From contig VGZY01000019.1 in the NCBI GenBank assembly GCA_016872355.1, positions 1-43,101 on the forward strand: a stretch of DNA of 43,101 nucleotides, written 5' to 3'. Within the stretch, counting starts at the first letter, position 1, and the number at the start of each line of letters is the position of its first letter. The position numbers and the translations under genes are program-made. This DNA comes from SAR202 cluster bacterium. Its GTDB lineage: Bacteria > Chloroflexota > Dehalococcoidia > Lucifugimonadales > VGZY01. Below, one piece after another: positions 9,065 through 16,125 of this stretch. The notes below the pieces were generated by a model. It saw only the letters and a program-made list of their open reading frames with translations. It did not search any database and was not told the origin of the DNA.

Positions 9065-10042
9065 CTACATTCCGAAGAGCTCTTTGGCCTTCTGGAGGAC
9101 GCGCTTGGCGTCTGGGATTGCAGCTGCCTCAAGGACCCCGTTGTAAGGGGCCGGTACATCCAGTCCGCCGACATGGCCTACCGGGCCGTCCAGGTCGTCG
9201 AACGCGGCCTCCTGGACCGACTGGGCGATCCATGAGCCGAAGCCGCCGGTCTCCCAGACCTCTTCCACGACGATGCACCGGTTGGTCTTCTTGACGGACT
9301 TGACGATGGTGTCCAGGTCCAGCGGCCGTAGCGTGCGGACATCGATGACTTCCGCCTGCTTGCCCATTTCGGCAAAGAGCTTCGCGGCGTTCTGTGCCAC
9401 GTGCACCATCCGGCCGTAGGCGACCAGTGTGATGTCCTTGCCTTCGCGCTTGACGGCGGCCTGGCCGAAGGGCACCTTGTAGGGGGCGTCCGGCACTTCT
9501 CCCTTGAAACCGTAGAGGAGGGCGTGCTCGGCAAAGATCACCGGGTCGCGCTCGTCCAGCGCGGACCTGAATAGGCCGAGAGCGTCGTAGGGATCGGAAG
9601 GGATCGCGACCTTTATGCCGGGTACGGAGGCGAACCAGCCCTCGAAGCTCTGCGAGTGCGTGGCAGCAAGCTGCGCGCCGCCGCCGGTGACAGTGCGGAT
9701 TATCAGAGGCACTTCGAGCTGGCCGTTGGACATGTACCGCAGCTTCGCCGCGTGGTTCACCACCTGGTCGATGCCCAGCAGAAGGAAGTTGATCGTCATT
9801 ATCTCGACGATTGGCCTCTGGCCGGCCATTGCCGCGCCGACGCCCGCGCCAACCATCACACCCTCTGCAATGGGCGTGTCCCGGACGCGCTCCGGGCCGT
9901 ACTTTTCGAAGAAGCCCTTCGTCACCGCGTAGGCGCCCTGGTATGCGCCCACGTCCTCGCCCATGATAAACGCCCTCTCGTCTTTATCGAGGGCTTCGCG
10001 GAGGCCCCGGGCTATCGCCTCTCTCATTATGATCTCAGCCAT
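9065..10042 (-). CDS. pdhB: Pyruvate dehydrogenase E1 component, beta subunit
   Basis: A 325-residue transketolase-like E1-beta subunit, with EDVGAYQGAY, the RVRDTPIAEG segment and the C-terminal transketolase domain (VIDVRTLRPLDLDTI). It forms the alpha2beta2 ThDP-dependent E1 with the protein at 10124-11101. It could equally serve an acetoin or branched-chain 2-oxoacid complex; the conserved set with lpdA and E2 favours pyruvate dehydrogenase without excluding these. It lies between pdhA and pdhC in one operon. Confidence 0.9.
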   Translation of the reverse strand: MAEIIMREAIARGLREALDKDERAFIMGEDVGAYQGAYAVTKGFFEKYGPERVRDTPIAEGVMVGAGVGAAMAGQRPIVEIMTINFLLLGIDQVVNHAAKLRYMSNGQLEVPLIIRTVTGGGAQLAATHSQSFEGWFASVPGIKVAIPSDPYDALGLFRSALDERDPVIFAEHALLYGFKGEVPDAPYKVPFGQAAVKREGKDITLVAYGRMVHVAQNAAKLFAEMGKQAEVIDVRTLRPLDLDTIVKSVKKTNRCIVVEEVWETGGFGSWIAQSVQEAAFDDLDGPVGHVGGLDVPAPYNGVLEAAAIPDAKRVLQKAKELFGM

Positions 10043-10087
10043 GCTACTTTCCGACTTTCAGATCCTCTCCCGCAAAGCCGGGAAAGG

Positions 10088-10110
10088 CCATCCCGATGGA
10101 ATCGGGATGG
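10088..10110 (-). promoter_or_regulatory. Intercistronic hairpin between pdhA and pdhB
   Basis: CCATCCCGAT at 10088-10097 pairs with ATCGGGATGG at 10101-10110 around a three-base loop, a perfect 10-base-pair stem. It sits in the 81-base gap between pdhA and pdhB. It could be an mRNA stability or processing element, or a partial attenuator; no T-tract follows. Confidence 0.5.
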
Positions 10111-10123
10111 GTGAGGGCCTGCC

Positions 10124-11101
10124 TTAAGACGCGATAATATGCTCGAACAGCGCCTCCATCGGCGGGTTCGGACTCTCGTTGGCGAACTTGATGGACTCCG
10201 TCACCGCCGCTTCGACTTCCTTGTCTATCTGCGCGAGCTCTTTCTCGGAAATCAACCCTTCCGTGACTGCGAGCTTTTTGAACGCGGGGATCGGGTCTCT
10301 GACCTGCTCCCGCTCCACCTCGGATGACTCCCGGTAGTACGAGGCGTCCGACATGGAGTGGCCGCGGAAGCGGTACGTCATGGCCTCAATGAAAACGGGT
10401 CCGTCACCTGTACGGACCCGTTTGAGAGCCTCCGCTGTCGCCTCGCGTACGGCTGCTACGTCCATGCCGTCGATCTGGGCGGCGGGGATGTTGTAGGCGT
10501 CGGCGGCCAGGTAAATGTCCTTACCGGCGGCGCGAGCGCGGCTGACGAGGGTGCCCATGCCGTACATGTTGTTTTCGAGGAAGAAGATGACCGGCAGCTT
10601 CCAGAGGGAAGCGAGGTTGAGCGATTCGTGGAAGTAGCCCTCGTTCACGGCGCCGTCGCCGAAGAAGCAGAGGACCGCGCTGTCCTCTTTCTTGCGCTTG
10701 ATGGCCAGCCCCAGGCCGCATGCCAGCGGCATCTGGCCGGCAACAATGGCGTGGCCGCCCATGAAGCGCTTCTCAATATCGAAAAGGTGCATGGAGCCGC
10801 CCTTACCGCCGCTGCAACCCGTAACCTTGCCGAACAGCTCCGCCATGACGGCGTTGGGGTGGATACCCTTCGCGATTGCGTGGCCATGGTCACGGTAGCT
10901 GGTAATCACGTAGTCGTCCTTGCGTGTGACGGACATGGCGCCCACCGCGACGGCCTCCTGGCCGATGTAAAGGTGCAGGAAGCCGCGTATCTTGCCCTGC
11001 TGGTACTGGCGCGCGCACTGCTCCTCGAACAGGCGGATCAGCGCCATCTGCCTGTACATCTCCGCTACCTGGGCCTTGTCCAGATTGATCGCCACCTTCA
11101 T
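10124..11101 (-). CDS. pdhA: Pyruvate dehydrogenase E1 component, alpha subunit
   Basis: A 325-residue ThDP-binding subunit. The ThDP motif begins GDG at residues 148-150 and ends at ENN (about 176-178). The preceding GGKGGSMH loop and the RYRGHSMSD-type phosphorylation-loop segment (YRFRGHSMSD) are typical of E1-alpha. GAGGT precedes the ATG at 11101. A terminator at 11156-11183 separates it from lpdA, so it may have its own promoter in the short gap; none is obvious to me. Confidence 0.92.
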   Translation of the reverse strand: MKVAINLDKAQVAEMYRQMALIRLFEEQCARQYQQGKIRGFLHLYIGQEAVAVGAMSVTRKDDYVITSYRDHGHAIAKGIHPNAVMAELFGKVTGCSGGKGGSMHLFDIEKRFMGGHAIVAGQMPLACGLGLAIKRKKEDSAVLCFFGDGAVNEGYFHESLNLASLWKLPVIFFLENNMYGMGTLVSRARAAGKDIYLAADAYNIPAAQIDGMDVAAVREATAEALKRVRTGDGPVFIEAMTYRFRGHSMSDASYYRESSEVEREQVRDPIPAFKKLAVTEGLISEKELAQIDKEVEAAVTESIKFANESPNPPMEALFEHIIAS

Positions 11102-11155
11102 CTATGACCTCACACACCCGGAAAAGTTGCCATAAGCCGGTATAAACATTCTAGA

Positions 11156-11183
11156 AAAATAGGAGCAGCAACGCTCCTATTTT
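11156..11183 (-). terminator. Intrinsic terminator after lpdA
   Basis: AAAATAGGAGC at 11156-11166 pairs with GCTCCTATTTT at 11173-11183 around a six-base loop. Read on the minus strand, the stem is followed by a run of T residues. It lies between lpdA and pdhA, so lpdA may be transcribed separately or only partly read through. Confidence 0.8.
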
Positions 11184-11235
11184 ACCATCCCATATTCGTA
11201 ATTTTACCTAGACGATGGGAGGCGCCCTGCGGTCC

Positions 11236-12618
11236 TTATATGTGGATCGCTTCGCCGTCCGCTTGAAGCGCCGCTTCCTTGACCGCCTCAGAGATGGTCG
11301 GGTGCGGGTGCACCAGCCACCCAAGCTCCTTCGTTGTGCTCTCCAGCAGGCGGGCCATTCCCAGCTCGCCCAGCAGCTCGGTGACCTCAGGGCCGATCAT
11401 GTGCGCCCCCAGGATATCGCCGATCTCAGCGTCCACCACCACCTTGACGAAGCCGTCGGTCTCGCCCATTGCGAGCGCCTTGCCGCTGGCGACGAACGGG
11501 AACTTGCCGATCTTGACGTTGAAGCCCTTCTCCTTCGCCTGTGCCTCGGTAAGTCCGAAGCTGGCGATCTGGGGCTTGCAATATGTAGCCTTGGGCATAT
11601 TCACGTAGTCGAGCTTGGGCGGGTTGAGGCCGGCGATGTGCTCCACTGCGGTGACGCCCTGTGCGGACGCCACGTGCGCCAGCAACATCTTGCCGTTGAC
11701 GTCGCCAATGGCGTAGATGCCCGGGACGTTTGTCTGCATCTTGTCGTCCACGGTCACGTACCCGCGGTCTGTCTTAACGCCGACGCCCTCAAGGCCGATG
11801 CCGTCGATATTGCCCTGCATGCCCACGGCGACGAGCACCTTGTCGCACTCGACTACGGTCGTGCCGGCGGAGTTCGTAATCGTCACCTTGGCCTTGTTGC
11901 CGGTGACCTCAACCTTGTCTACCTTGGCGCCGAGCATGGCGTTGATGCCCTGCTTCTTGAAGGCGCGCTCAGCCTGGGTGCTGATCTCCTCGTCCTCGAG
12001 TGGCACCAGGCGGGGCTGGAGCTCAACGATTGTGACGTCCGCTCCGTACTTGCTCCAGACATATCCGAACTCCATGCCCGTCGCGCCCGCACCCACGATG
12101 ATCGCCTTCTTGGGGACCTCGCGGGTCTCAAGAGCCTCGCGGCTGGTGATGACGACCTTTTTGTCGACGGGCAGGGTGGGCAGCTGCCGGAAGCGCGCGC
12201 CGGTGGCGATGATGATGTTCTTCGTCGTGAGTGTTCGCTTGGCGCTCTCGACTACGACGGTGTTCTTGTCCTTGATTACGCCCAGCCCTTCGACGTACTC
12301 AACCTTGTGCTTCTTGAGGAGGGAGGCGACGCCCCTGGTGAGGCGCTTCACGACGTCGCGGCTGCGGTCTACGGCCTTGCCGAAGTCGTACTGCACATTG
12401 TCGACGGAGACGCCCCAGTCGGCGGCGTTCTTGAAGTAGCTCAGGACCTCGGCGTTCTTGAGGAGGGCCTTGCTGGGTATGCACCCCCAGTTCAGGCATA
12501 TGCCGCCCACCTCGGCCCGTTCGATAATGGCTGTCTTGAGGCCAAGTTGGCCCGCGCGAATAGCGGCCACGTATCCGCCCGGACCGCTGCCGATGACAAC
12601 TACATCATAATCTGGCAC
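11236..12618 (-). CDS. lpdA: Dihydrolipoamide dehydrogenase (E3)
   Basis: A 460-residue FAD flavoprotein that reoxidises the E2 lipoyl group with NAD+. Features: N-terminal GSGPGG dinucleotide fold (residues 10-15), the redox disulfide Cys41/Cys46 in GGICLNWGCIPSK, a second GAGATGMEFG nucleotide fold mid-protein, and the C-terminal HPHPTISE active-site His segment. The start is GTG at 12618, with GAGGTG five bases ahead. Its position upstream of pdhABC indicates service to that complex; it could also serve glycine cleavage or other 2-oxoacid complexes. Confidence 0.95.
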   Translation of the reverse strand: MPDYDVVVIGSGPGGYVAAIRAGQLGLKTAIIERAEVGGICLNWGCIPSKALLKNAEVLSYFKNAADWGVSVDNVQYDFGKAVDRSRDVVKRLTRGVASLLKKHKVEYVEGLGVIKDKNTVVVESAKRTLTTKNIIIATGARFRQLPTLPVDKKVVITSREALETREVPKKAIIVGAGATGMEFGYVWSKYGADVTIVELQPRLVPLEDEEISTQAERAFKKQGINAMLGAKVDKVEVTGNKAKVTITNSAGTTVVECDKVLVAVGMQGNIDGIGLEGVGVKTDRGYVTVDDKMQTNVPGIYAIGDVNGKMLLAHVASAQGVTAVEHIAGLNPPKLDYVNMPKATYCKPQIASFGLTEAQAKEKGFNVKIGKFPFVASGKALAMGETDGFVKVVVDAEIGDILGAHMIGPEVTELLGELGMARLLESTTKELGWLVHPHPTISEAVKEAALQADGEAIHI

Positions 12619-12664
12619 TCGAACACCTCAAATGAGCAAATCCGTAAGCCTGGAGACGGGCACC

Positions 12665-12693
12665 ATTCTACATCAATGCATATGCAGCCACAA
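12665..12693 (-). promoter_or_regulatory. Candidate promoter for lpdA
   Basis: On the minus strand TTGTGG (12688-12693) and TAGAAT (12665-12670) are separated by 17 bases. The start point would be near 12658, about 40 bases before the lpdA GTG. The -10 matches 5 of 6 consensus bases and the -35 is weak. Confidence 0.4.
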
Positions 12694-12786
12694 AGAAACT
12701 GCGTCGATTTAAGCGTTTATGAAACTCGGAATCGTGAAACGCAAGGCCTATTTTTGGGCCGAAGGCGACGAAGATCGTAAGGGCCT

Positions 12787-13200
12787 CTAGGCGGGCCGGA
12801 AGCTGAAAGGCGCTACGTCCGAAGAGACCTCCGGCGCGTCGAAATCTACGATAACCGGCAATCCAACGTAGACGTCCCTTGGGGCGATGCCGGTCAGTCC
12901 AGCCATGAATCGCGGCCCCTCAATTAACTCAATGACCGCAATAACTGCTTTCGGCAGCCCCGTTCCCTGTTTCCCGCCTGGGTAAGTGAGCACGAAGCTG
13001 AAGACTTTGCCCTCGCCCTGCGCCTTCACCCATTTGAACGTGGTTGCGCGGCAGTCCGGGCAAATGGTGGGCCGGTAGAACAGGCCGCCGCACCGGGTAC
13101 ACTCGGAAAGCATGAGCTTCCCGTCCGTCACAGCATTCAGGAACTCTGTGTCGGCCTTGCTGGGCTTCGATTCGGGCTTGATCTGATCGGGTCTTTGCAT
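12787..13200 (-). CDS. Zn-ribbon/OB-fold protein (DUF35 type)
   Basis: A 137-residue protein with a rubredoxin-like zinc ribbon (Cys34/Cys37 and Cys47/Cys50) followed by an OB-fold (VFSFVLTYP to FMAGLTGI). DUF35 proteins partner thiolases and acyl-CoA dehydratases or hydratases as CoA-ester binding subunits. No thiolase lies beside it here. The start at 13200 is preferred over the open frame to 13365, whose N-terminal extension is low-complexity basic sequence. It is divergent from the pan operon, sharing a roughly 290-base upstream region. Confidence 0.8.
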   Translation of the reverse strand: MQRPDQIKPESKPSKADTEFLNAVTDGKLMLSECTRCGGLFYRPTICPDCRATTFKWVKAQGEGKVFSFVLTYPGGKQGTGLPKAVIAVIELIEGPRFMAGLTGIAPRDVYVGLPVIVDFDAPEVSSDVAPFSFRPA

Positions 13201-13299
13201 CTGGCTAAATGTCCGCAGGTGTCGTCCCAAAAATATTTCACGCAGTCTAATAAAGCGCCGCCGCCGCGTCAAGCTAAAGCGAGAATGACTTGAACGCCC

Positions 13300-13328
13300 T
13301 TCACGCTTTTCTGACTCCCTGTTATTAT
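13300..13328 (+). promoter_or_regulatory. Promoter for the pantothenate operon leader
   Basis: TTCACG at 13300-13305 and TATTAT at 13323-13328, with a 17-base spacer. Transcription would begin near 13335, immediately before the structured leader RNA at 13338-13456. Confidence 0.55.
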
Positions 13329-13337
13329 AGGTTATGC

Positions 13338-13456
13338 AGCCAATCCCCATGGGAACGGTGAGCACAATCAGAATACGTCTTTACGCCATGGCCGTAAGGT
13401 CATGGCCACTACGATTGTGTGAGCCTTCCCATCTCCGGGGAGGCTTATTCTTTTTC
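13338..13456 (+). ncRNA. Structured leader RNA with terminator, candidate pan-type motif
   Basis: Two mutually exclusive folds are visible. In the terminator fold, AGCCTTCCC (13422-13430) pairs with GGGGAGGCT (13437-13445), followed by TATTCTTTTTC. In the alternative fold, AGCC-AA-TCCCC (13338-13348) pairs with the same GGGGA-GGCT arm leaving two bulged A residues, and ATGGGA (13349-13354) pairs with TCCCAT (13427-13432). Both folds can contain CACAATC/GATTGTG (13363-13369/13413-13419) and a nine-pair hairpin (13385-13393/13398-13406, loop GTAA). The Rfam 'pan' motif, known upstream of panB/C/D operons including in Chloroflexota, is described as stem-loops with two bulged adenosines. The match is by position and style, not by covariance search. 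Confidence 0.6.
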
Positions 13457-13489
13457 TAATGCCGCCCGGGCGCACAGGTTATCTACCGG

Positions 13490-14374
13490 ATGCTGGACCG
13501 TAACTCTCGAATCGGATTCATCGGCGCGGGACAGGTGGGGAAGTCGATGGCTGCCGCGCTTTCGCGCAAGGGGTACAAAGTCGTCGCCTCTGCCAGCCGC
13601 ACTTTCGCTTCCGCGGAGTCCCTGGCCCATCTTGTGCCGGGCTGCGTTGCCTACCGGTCCATCTACGAGGCCGCTTCAAAGTGCGACATGGTCTTTATTA
13701 CCGGCACGGACGCGTCCATAGCGCCGATAGCCGCGAGCATCAAGTGGCGCAAGGGGCAGGGCGTGGCGCACTGCTCCGGCGCAACGTCCACGGATGTTTT
13801 CGCCCTGGCGAAGGCGATGGGCGCCGTCCCGGGAGCGTTTCACCCTCTGCAGACGTTCTCGGACGTAGAGAAGGCGGTTGCGAGCCTGCCGGGAACGACG
13901 TTCGCCATTGAGGGCGAAGAGGAGATGCGGGCGTACCTGAAGGAGATGGCGCTGGCGCTAGGTGGCGTGCCGATCTTCCTGCGGGCGGAAGACAAGGCGC
14001 TGTACCACTGCACCGTGGTAATGATGGGCGGCATACTAAACGGCCTGTGCGGAGCAATCGCCGGGCTGTGGCAGGAGAACTTCGGAATAGACCGCAACCA
14101 GGCGCTGAAGTCGCTCGCGCCCATCATGCAGGGCACAGCCGCAACGCTCGCCTCGCTGGGGCTGCCCGCTGCCGCGGCGGGGCCTTATGTGCGCGGAGAT
14201 GCGGGAACGGTAAGGAAGCACATGAACGCGCTCCGGGAGTTCTCTCCGGAGATGGTGCCGGTCTACTGCAACATGGCGCTTGCGGCGTTCCCGGTGGCGC
14301 TGGAGAAGGGCAACGTATCGGCCGAGAAGGCGGAAGAGATAAGGCAGCTGCTCCAGGAAGGCACTAAGGGTTGA
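13490..14374 (+). CDS. Rossmann-fold DUF2520 protein, probable ketopantoate-reductase-like enzyme
   Basis: A 294-residue protein. The N-terminal dinucleotide-binding fold is IGFIGAGQVGKSMA (about residues 8-21), the central segment has HCSGATSTDV and GAFHPLQTF, and the C-terminal helical half is DUF2520. The architecture parallels NADP-dependent 6-phosphogluconate or ketopantoate reductase-type enzymes. It directly precedes panB and panC behind a dedicated leader RNA, and no panE is present. Supplying the ketopantoate-to-pantoate reduction is therefore the likely role (inference from context). The stop overlaps a TTG that opens the longer panB frame. Confidence 0.8.
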   Translation: MLDRNSRIGFIGAGQVGKSMAAALSRKGYKVVASASRTFASAESLAHLVPGCVAYRSIYEAASKCDMVFITGTDASIAPIAASIKWRKGQGVAHCSGATSTDVFALAKAMGAVPGAFHPLQTFSDVEKAVASLPGTTFAIEGEEEMRAYLKEMALALGGVPIFLRAEDKALYHCTVVMMGGILNGLCGAIAGLWQENFGIDRNQALKSLAPIMQGTAATLASLGLPAAAAGPYVRGDAGTVRKHMNALREFSPEMVPVYCNMALAAFPVALEKGNVSAEKAEEIRQLLQEGTKG

Positions 14375-14397
14375 AGCGGAGTCTCAAGGAGGCTTCC

Positions 14398-15294
14398 ATG
14401 CGCGTGACCATTACTGACCTCAAGGAAATGAAGAGGAAGGCCGAGAAAATCCCCATGATCACCGCGTACGACTATACGTCGGCGCGGCTGGTGGAGTCGA
14501 CGGGGATACCGCTGATACTCGTCGGGGACAGCCTGGGGCAGGTGGTGCAGGGGCACGACTCCACCTTGCCCGTGACGATGGACGATATCATCTATCACGT
14601 GAAGTCGGTGGTGCGCGGGACGCAGAAGGCGCACGTCATCGCGGACATGCCGTTCATGAGCTACCAGGCGGACGTCGCCGACGCGATCCGCAACGCCGGG
14701 AGGCTCCTCAAGGAGGGCGGAGCGTCGTCGGTGAAGCTGGAGGGCGGGCGCGTGATGGCGGAGACGGTGCGGCGGATCGTAGAGGTGGGCATACCTGTCA
14801 TGGGCCACATCGGGCTCACGCCGCAGTCTTTCAACCAGCTCGGTGGCTACAAGGTGCAGGGGAAGACGGCAAAAGCCGCGCTGGATCTCATGGATGACGC
14901 CCTCGCCCTCGAGCAGGCCGGAGTATACGCAATCGTCCTGGAGATGGTCCCTCTGAACCTCGCCCAGTCGATAACCCGGAAACTGAGCATCCCCACCATC
15001 GGCATCGGCGCGGGCGTCCACTGCGACGGGCAGGTGCAGGTCTTCCACGATATCCTCGGGCTTATCACTGACGAAATGCACAAGCATGCCCGCCGGTACG
15101 CAGAGGTCGGCAACCTCATCAAGGCCGTCATGGAGCAGTACATCCAGGACGTCCGCAACGGCGCATTCCCGACTGACCGAGAGAGCTTTCACATGGCCCA
15201 CCATGCGATTGAGGAGATGAACGCGCTCGGTTCCCCTGTTGACGGGCTCGTTGAGGGCGCGGGATACCGGAATAGAATCGAAGGTCGGAAATAA
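14398..15294 (+). CDS. panB: 3-methyl-2-oxobutanoate hydroxymethyltransferase
   Basis: A 298-residue enzyme adding a hydroxymethyl group from methylene-THF to 2-ketoisovalerate to make ketopantoate, the first step of pantothenate synthesis. Features: ITAYDYTSARL near residue 21, the Mg-binding Asp44 in LVGDSLGQVVQGH, VKLEGG, and IPTIGIGAG. ATG 14398 is chosen because a full AAGGAGG lies five bases ahead; the upstream TTG at 14371 overlaps the previous gene and has no site. The panB stop abuts the panC start (TAA then ATG). Confidence 0.95.
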   Translation: MRVTITDLKEMKRKAEKIPMITAYDYTSARLVESTGIPLILVGDSLGQVVQGHDSTLPVTMDDIIYHVKSVVRGTQKAHVIADMPFMSYQADVADAIRNAGRLLKEGGASSVKLEGGRVMAETVRRIVEVGIPVMGHIGLTPQSFNQLGGYKVQGKTAKAALDLMDDALALEQAGVYAIVLEMVPLNLAQSITRKLSIPTIGIGAGVHCDGQVQVFHDILGLITDEMHKHARRYAEVGNLIKAVMEQYIQDVRNGAFPTDRESFHMAHHAIEEMNALGSPVDGLVEGAGYRNRIEGRK

Positions 15295-16125
15295 ATGAAG
15301 GTCATATCCACGGTCGCCGGCGTGCGGGAGGAGCTCCTCTCGGTTGCTCACCCCGTCGGTCTCGTCCCCACCATGGGCGCCCTGCACAGAGGGCACGCCT
15401 CACTCGTGGAGCGCGCAAGGAGCGAGAACCCGACCGTCGTCTCAACGATCTTCGTCAATCCCAGGCAGTTCGGACCGAGCGAGGACTTTACTGCCTACCC
15501 ACGACCGGTCGAGGATGACCTTGCCATGCTGGAGAAGGCTGGCGCGGACATCGTTTTCACTCCCGGGACCGATGAAATTTACCCTCCTGGGTTCGACACC
15601 TACGTTGATTGCGGCAAGCTGACAGAAAGGCTTGAAGGGAAGTCCCGGCCAGGCCACTTCCGCGGCGTCGCGACCGTCGTCACGAAGCTCCTCTCTATAG
15701 TGCGGCCGGACCGCGCGTATTTCGGACAGAAGGACGCGCAGCAGTGCATGGTCATCAAGAAGCTGAACGCGGACCTGAACCTTGGCGTAGATATCGTTAT
15801 CTGCCCCACGGTGCGGGAGCCGGACGGCCTGGCGATGAGCAGCCGTAACCGCTACCTCAACCCGCAAGAGCGTGCCGCTGCGCCGGTGCTGTTCCGGTCT
15901 CTGCGATTCGCAAGCGAGCTGGGTATCTCCGATGCCGAGGAAGTGCGCCGCCGCATGCGCGCGCTCATCGAGCAGGAGCCCCTCGCGAAGATCGACTACG
16001 TCAGCATCGCCGACCCGGACACCCTTGAAGAACTGGACCGGCTGGACGGCAGGCCTGCCCTAGTGTCGCTGGCCGTGCGGATTGGCAAGACACGGCTGAT
16101 CGATAACGTGACAATAGGGCAGTGA
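15295..16125 (+). CDS. panC: Pantothenate synthetase (pantoate-beta-alanine ligase)
   Basis: A 276-residue ATP-dependent ligase joining pantoate and beta-alanine. Features: PTMGALHRGH at residues 25-34 (the HIGH-type nucleotide motif), FVNPRQFGPSEDF, FGQKDAQQ, and DGLAMSSRNRYL (the KMSKS-equivalent region). It begins immediately after the panB stop, so translation is coupled. It is last in the operon; panD is not in view. The DUF971 gene follows convergently after ten bases. Confidence 0.96.
   Translation: MKVISTVAGVREELLSVAHPVGLVPTMGALHRGHASLVERARSENPTVVSTIFVNPRQFGPSEDFTAYPRPVEDDLAMLEKAGADIVFTPGTDEIYPPGFDTYVDCGKLTERLEGKSRPGHFRGVATVVTKLLSIVRPDRAYFGQKDAQQCMVIKKLNADLNLGVDIVICPTVREPDGLAMSSRNRYLNPQERAAAPVLFRSLRFASELGISDAEEVRRRMRALIEQEPLAKIDYVSIADPDTLEELDRLDGRPALVSLAVRIGKTRLIDNVTIGQ

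Follow-up and report, generated by a model that had tools for sequence, protein, structure and literature searches.

The 5' leader of a pantothenate operon in a SAR202 cluster bacterium is probably (roughly 80%) a transcription-attenuation switch that senses through one divergent pan-type unit, descended from unit 1 of tandem pan RNAs. It occupies positions 13300-13456 on the forward strand of a 43,101-nt stretch of DNA (the window). The pan motif (RF01749) was described by Weinberg et al. in 2010 (PMC2864571) and has been listed since then without a known effector. The comparison shows that many pan operons of SAR202-like Chloroflexota have pan RNAs in front of them, mostly missed by Rfam, and that one clade operates with a single altered unit. 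Covariation between the loop of this unit and the terminator gives comparative evidence for the switch's mode of action.

Operon context and distribution

The leader lies upstream of DUF2520-panB-panC genes, which is the location expected of the pan motif, in front of operons that contain panB, panC or aspartate decarboxylase. The first gene (13490-14374, forward strand) encodes a Rossmann-like/DUF2520 protein (PF10727, PF10728). It is followed on the same strand by panB (ketopantoate hydroxymethyltransferase, 14371-15294; PF02548, E = 1.9e-114), which probably starts at the ATG at 14398, and by panC (pantoate-beta-alanine ligase, 15295-16125; PF02569, E = 1.9e-104). The related leaders with readable downstream genes precede DUF2520-panB-panC operons, with or without a leading P1 peptidase gene. 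The operon of most relatives opens with a P1/S58 peptidase gene, followed by DUF2520-panB-panC-surE (e.g. L022, L060 and L021); in the window's genome the peptidase gene is away from the pan operon (G000:C13:35953-36885). A search of this genome for PanD (PF02261) found none. The S58 family includes beta-aminopeptidases, and an S58-type peptidase could be the supplier of beta-alanine in this genome. Divergent from the pan operon, the reverse strand of the window (9065-13200) carries 2-oxoacid (pyruvate-type) dehydrogenase genes and a gene for an OB-fold/zinc-ribbon protein. Several relatives (e.g. L006, L007 and L009) also have an E3-like gene adjoining their pan leader, which places a CoA user next to CoA-precursor genes.

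A sigma-70-like promoter with an extended -10 element begins the leader (TTCACG-17-TATTAT with TG before the -10, 13300-13328, forward strand; extended -10 TGTTATTAT). Only 0.3 matches to this pattern are expected by chance in the pattern scan, and transcription is expected to start near 13334-13336. The promoter and the terminator each exceed shuffled expectation. An initial annotation of this DNA had proposed that a pantothenate operon is preceded here by its own promoter, a terminator and two competing helices, and each of these elements is present where it had been placed.

The conserved part of the leader was found by blastn in 10 of 59 genomes of the order. A covariance model of the single-unit family (R1) matches 26 of 250 order genomes at E <= 1e-6, with AT-rich relatives matched more weakly, and more divergent members were added by reading panB-upstream regions of the order. 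The genomes compared are mostly metagenome-assembled. When 84,980 species genomes (257 Gb) were scanned, SAR202/Dehalococcoidia/Chloroflexi MAGs were the only ones in which the core was accompanied by a promoter and a terminator. About 30 further matches to the exact core pattern have no such context, and by a rough estimate about 19 are expected by chance. Exact-pattern matches outside SAR202/Dehalococcoidia were not counted, nor were R1 matches of 21-28 bits in other parts of the class and phylum, since no promoter or pan context was seen with them. A second copy in genome G030 (L103, 29 bits) was likewise set aside, as no promoter, terminator or pan gene was seen with it.

Hairpin, terminator and proposed mechanism

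Comparison of the window's leader with those of its order-mates brought out a core of about 29 nt, GCAGCCAATCC-loop-GGAACGGTGAGC. It corresponds to a local hairpin at 13336-13363 (forward strand), the most conserved part of the leader, which the initial annotation had missed. This predicted core sensor hairpin reads GC-AGCCA-A-UCCCCAUGGGA-A-CGGUG-A-GC, with an inner UCC(C)/(G)GGA helix and closing GC/GC pairs. Across 22 leaders nearly all positions are invariant except for a loop of 4-6 nt. The extended -10 element lies 6-8 nt 5' of the hairpin in essentially all members of the family. Once ~31 nt have been transcribed, this hairpin is the predicted fold, and it would be the first to form as the RNA grows.

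Covariation of the inner helix was examined in 33 sequences, the 22 leaders and 11 divergent ones. The helix occurs as UCC/GGA, UCU/AGA, UCUU/AAGA, UCUC/GGGA, UCCA/UGGA and UUCU/AGAA, and its four pairs covary (permutation p = 0.03 to 1e-4). For the outer pair adjoining GC/GC (U-A, C-G or U.G) no more than a weak trend is seen (p = 0.08). All 33 aligned units have both A positions, in register. Two subtypes can be distinguished. Subtype I, that of the window, has AA opposite AC (GC-AGCCA-A-UCC..GGA-A-CGGUG-A-GC); its 5-nt helix contains A.G and A.C mismatches and an additional A faces the 5' bulge. Subtype II, the AT-rich one, has AA opposite one nucleotide, mostly U (GC-AGCCA-A-UC..GA-UGGUG-A-GC), and keeps four of the five pairs of the 5-nt helix. 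A covariance model of subtype II recovers 26 of 26 subtype-I units, each at its exact position, and the subtype-I model detects several subtype-II leaders. On the basis of this reciprocal detection and the inner-helix covariation, we treat the subtypes as one predicted single-unit family.

The leader ends in an intrinsic terminator (13422-13456, forward strand), AGCCTTCCC-ATCTCC-GGGGAGGCT followed by a U tract, with hairpin AGCCTTCCCATCTCCGGGGAGGCT and tail TATTCTTTTT. A terminator hairpin with a T-rich tail occurs in 22/22 subtype-I leaders tested and precedes the first operon gene wherever the operon was readable. The anti-terminator pairs AUGGGAA (13349-13355), formed from part of the hairpin's loop and its 3' strand, with UUCCCAU (13426-13432), formed from the terminator 5' arm and the first nucleotides of the terminator loop. 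A helix that consumes the 5' arm had been proposed earlier as ATGGGA/TCCCAT; it is one pair longer in the minimum free energy (MFE) fold and covaries in relatives. When each anti-terminator strand is scored against its own terminator arm in 22 leaders, 0 of 20,000 swaps are as good (6 of 20,000 after dereplication), and 0 of 2,000 loop shuffles are. The same swap test gives 0/20,000 in a wider set of leaders with the entire downstream region scanned. A few members (L005, L008, L057 and L060) show weak pairing.

Because the anti-terminator takes up the hairpin's loop and 3' strand, it excludes the local hairpin. The MFE structure of the leader (-55.4 kcal/mol, z = -6.4, with 0/200 shuffles equally stable) combines the AUGGGAA/UUCCCAU helix with an outer AGCC-AA-UCCCC helix. 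The competing state, in which the local hairpin and the terminator form, has a computed energy of -52.5 kcal/mol. The two predicted folds are thus close in energy, 2.9 kcal/mol apart, and mutually exclusive, in agreement with the attenuation layout first suggested for this leader. Between the hairpin and the terminator, the computed fold contains a variable spacer hairpin (13363-13420, forward strand), CACAATC...GATTGTG enclosing CCATGGCC-GTAA-GGTCATGG, whose sequence is not conserved in relatives.

No obvious terminator was seen in the AT-rich members L108-L110 and L151, so control there may be translational. In these leaders the 3' strand of the unit can pair with CCATC(A) shortly 5' of the first gene.

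In the proposed mechanism, the unit at 13336-13363 would fold first, at the 5' end of the transcript. An effector that holds the unit would make AUGGGAA unavailable, the terminator would then form, and DUF2520-panB-panC would be off. If the unit opens instead, AUGGGAA could pair with UUCCCAU and permit read-through. The geometry suggests that effector binding corresponds to the OFF state, as in feedback repression. The effector may be a metabolite of the pantothenate pathway or related to CoA, or an RNA-binding protein. The literature searched, which covered few subscription journals, yielded no experimental work on pan RNA effectors.

The effector is the sole point on which our reading differs from one in which the unit is a protein-binding site, for a dedicated regulator or a pathway enzyme, and not a metabolite aptamer. 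We give the protein-binding alternative a little under an even chance. The unit is very small (28 nt) and its internal-loop adenosines are conserved, as might suit a protein site, and the usual tandem arrangement of pan RNAs led Weinberg et al. to propose that they are a dimeric protein-binding motif (PMC2864571). However, the existence of a single-unit form implies that a dimeric arrangement is dispensable, and no regulator gene is present in the pan operon. A more ambitious version of our reading is possible but doubtful: the leader would be a minimal 28-nt riboswitch for a pantothenate/CoA metabolite, evolved once from tandem pan and using its own loop as anti-terminator, and pan RNAs as a whole would be an unrecognized riboswitch class and not a protein-binding site. 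The very small unit and clear two-state design make what a pan RNA senses directly testable in vitro.

Relationship to tandem pan RNAs

Most pan RNAs are tandem (PMC2864571). Within the same order, at least 30 pan operons from SAR202-like Chloroflexota begin with canonical tandem pan RNAs (among the panB-upstream regions L119-L176; e.g. L119:1267-1345). Their first unit has the form GC-CAUCC-A-CC..GG-GGGUG-A-GC, with helix variants CACCG/CGGUG, CGCCC/GGGCG, AACCG/CGGUU and CAUUA/UAGUG, and the second has the form GCCG-CUGGG-A-UC..GA-CCGAG-A-CGGC. In an alignment of 27 unit-1 sequences, 98.4% of cells are paired and eight of nine pairs vary on both sides. As in the window's family, an extended -10 element is placed directly before unit 1, and most tandem leaders also lead into a terminator. 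The 5' strand of unit 2, a possible anti-terminator strand in the tandem leaders, is complementary to terminator 5' arms beyond the level of shuffled arms; unit 2 varies too little for this complementarity to show covariation. Neither a tandem nor a single unit was found in the pan operons of L121-L123 (f6), L143-L144 (f24), L163-L170 (f29) and L135-L137 (f19).

Rfam detects few of these RNAs. In a whole-genome search RF01749, with a gathering score of 36.2 bits, passed its cut-off in 1 of 98 genomes (G025). When short leader loci are searched, it ranks above all other families in 7 of 20 tandem leaders, in register and with scores of 21-29 bits, below the cut-off. RF01749 looks too narrow for Chloroflexota, and the 1/98 result reflects this narrow model and not absence; pan RNAs are widespread in the order and under-detected. 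A search of the window with this model had been proposed as one check of a pan assignment. It gave no match, even at E <= 10 within 13200-13560. No other Rfam family reached its cut-off in the window, and two that appear at E <= 10 (LLnc147 and ctRNA_p42d) are chance-level matches.

Comparison with the tandem leaders supports kinship to pan. The window's hairpin occupies the site of tandem unit 1, at the same distance from the -10 element, and its elements come in the same order: GC, 5-nt helix, A, inner helix, 5-nt helix, A, GC. The single-unit family and tandem unit 1 share the outer GC, the 3' GGUGAGC and both A positions in register. A model of tandem unit 1 (R3) was built without the window's family. 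Its five best hits in 28 kb are subtype-II units at their exact positions, with individually weak scores (E = 0.03-0.9); it does not pick up the window's own unit, which scores only 2.4 bits. The window's link to pan runs through subtype II.

Neither the window nor any other subtype-I leader scanned has a unit 2, and those subtype-II leaders that belong to the panB-upstream regions have none either. Just 5' of the terminator, the window contains GGCCAC-N9-GUGAGCC (13402-13427), which scores 8.9 bits with the unit-1 model (E = 0.037 in 361 nt). This is possibly a decayed second unit, or a chance match.

In a tree of DUF2520 proteins, the operons with single-unit leaders group in a single clade (SH-aLRT 98) that is embedded among tandem lineages. 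A minimum of one change between single and tandem forms is required, and several lineages have neither unit; some of the latter fall inside the single-unit clade. The single nested clade and the shared site suggest that the window's unit is a single-unit pan variant. These comparisons are most simply read as descent from tandem pan, once, in which one of the two units was lost.

An early reading of the hairpin as a wholly new RNA class was dropped once tandem pan leaders appeared at the same site. A related scenario, in which an unrelated new class took the place of tandem pan behind the same promoter and came to resemble its hairpin by convergence, is improbable. It would account for the failure of RF01749 and the unit-1 model to find the window's subtype, for the missing unit 2, and for two internal loops that do not resemble those of canonical pan (AA/AC in place of a lone A, and an A.G closing mismatch). 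Against it stand the shared placement and sequence elements, the single nested origin, and subtype II, an intermediate that both models detect. Similar departures also occur within tandem units themselves: L145 (GC-AGCCC-A-..-GGGCA-A-GC) and L174 (GU-CGCCA-A-..-UGGUG-A-AC) have similarly degenerate ends, and L176 has a top C.C mismatch with UCC/GGA.

Outer rod helix and comparison with known systems

The initial annotation had assigned the pan identity to a different fold, a longer closed rod in which AGCC-AA-UCCCC (13338-13348, forward strand) pairs with the terminator 3' arm, GGGGAGGCT (13437-13445). This helix does occur in the MFE structure, and its 5' strand is generally more complementary to terminator 3' arms than shuffled sequence is (0/1,000). 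However, it does not covary, with own arms no better than swapped ones (2,123/5,000). Both strands mirror the terminator 5' arm, which by itself would make them complementary, and in relatives each pan unit is a local hairpin. That the rod is the effector-binding, pan-like fold is thus very unlikely. The two bulged A residues had also been taken as a pan feature of the rod; in the local unit these two nucleotides form the AA, opposite another pairing strand, and the rod bulge is not the pan bulge. The assignment to pan holds as kinship, through the tandem leaders at the same site, the model-to-model detection and the tree, and it does not hold for the rod or as an RF01749 match. The absence of covariation in homologous leaders had been named as grounds for abandoning the switch; covariation was found, in the anti-terminator and the inner helix.

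Attenuation by a leader peptide, with ribosome stalling and with GGUGA as the ribosome-binding site of a short upstream ORF, is rejected as hardly credible: GGUGA can serve as a Shine-Dalgarno variant and an ATG lies 8-9 nt downstream in several relatives, but 5 of 22 leaders, including the window's, have no start codon in range, peptide length and sequence vary, conserved regulatory codons are absent, no conserved uORF was found in the 22 leaders, and it is the RNA pairs that are conserved.

Like the pan motif, the window's unit resides in the 5' leader of a panB/panC operon and is a stem whose 5-nt helix is flanked by two bulged A residues, one above it on the 5' side and one below it on the 3' side, and whose inner helix is UCC/GGA. 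Canonical tandem pan RNAs have the same position in relatives of the same order. Unlike the pan motif, the window's leader has one unit instead of two, and the 5-nt helix of the single unit is cut to GCC/GGU with A.G and A.C at its ends (A-U in subtype II). The window's subtype also carries the additional A opposite the 5' bulge and is missed by RF01749, and the loop of its unit forms part of a covarying anti-terminator. The leader resembles transcription-attenuating riboswitches in having a sensor hairpin at its 5' end, mutually exclusive anti-terminator and terminator, its own promoter and a downstream biosynthetic operon. Unlike attenuating riboswitches in general, its putative sensor is only 28 nt long, and the loop and 3' strand of this sensor double as the anti-terminator.
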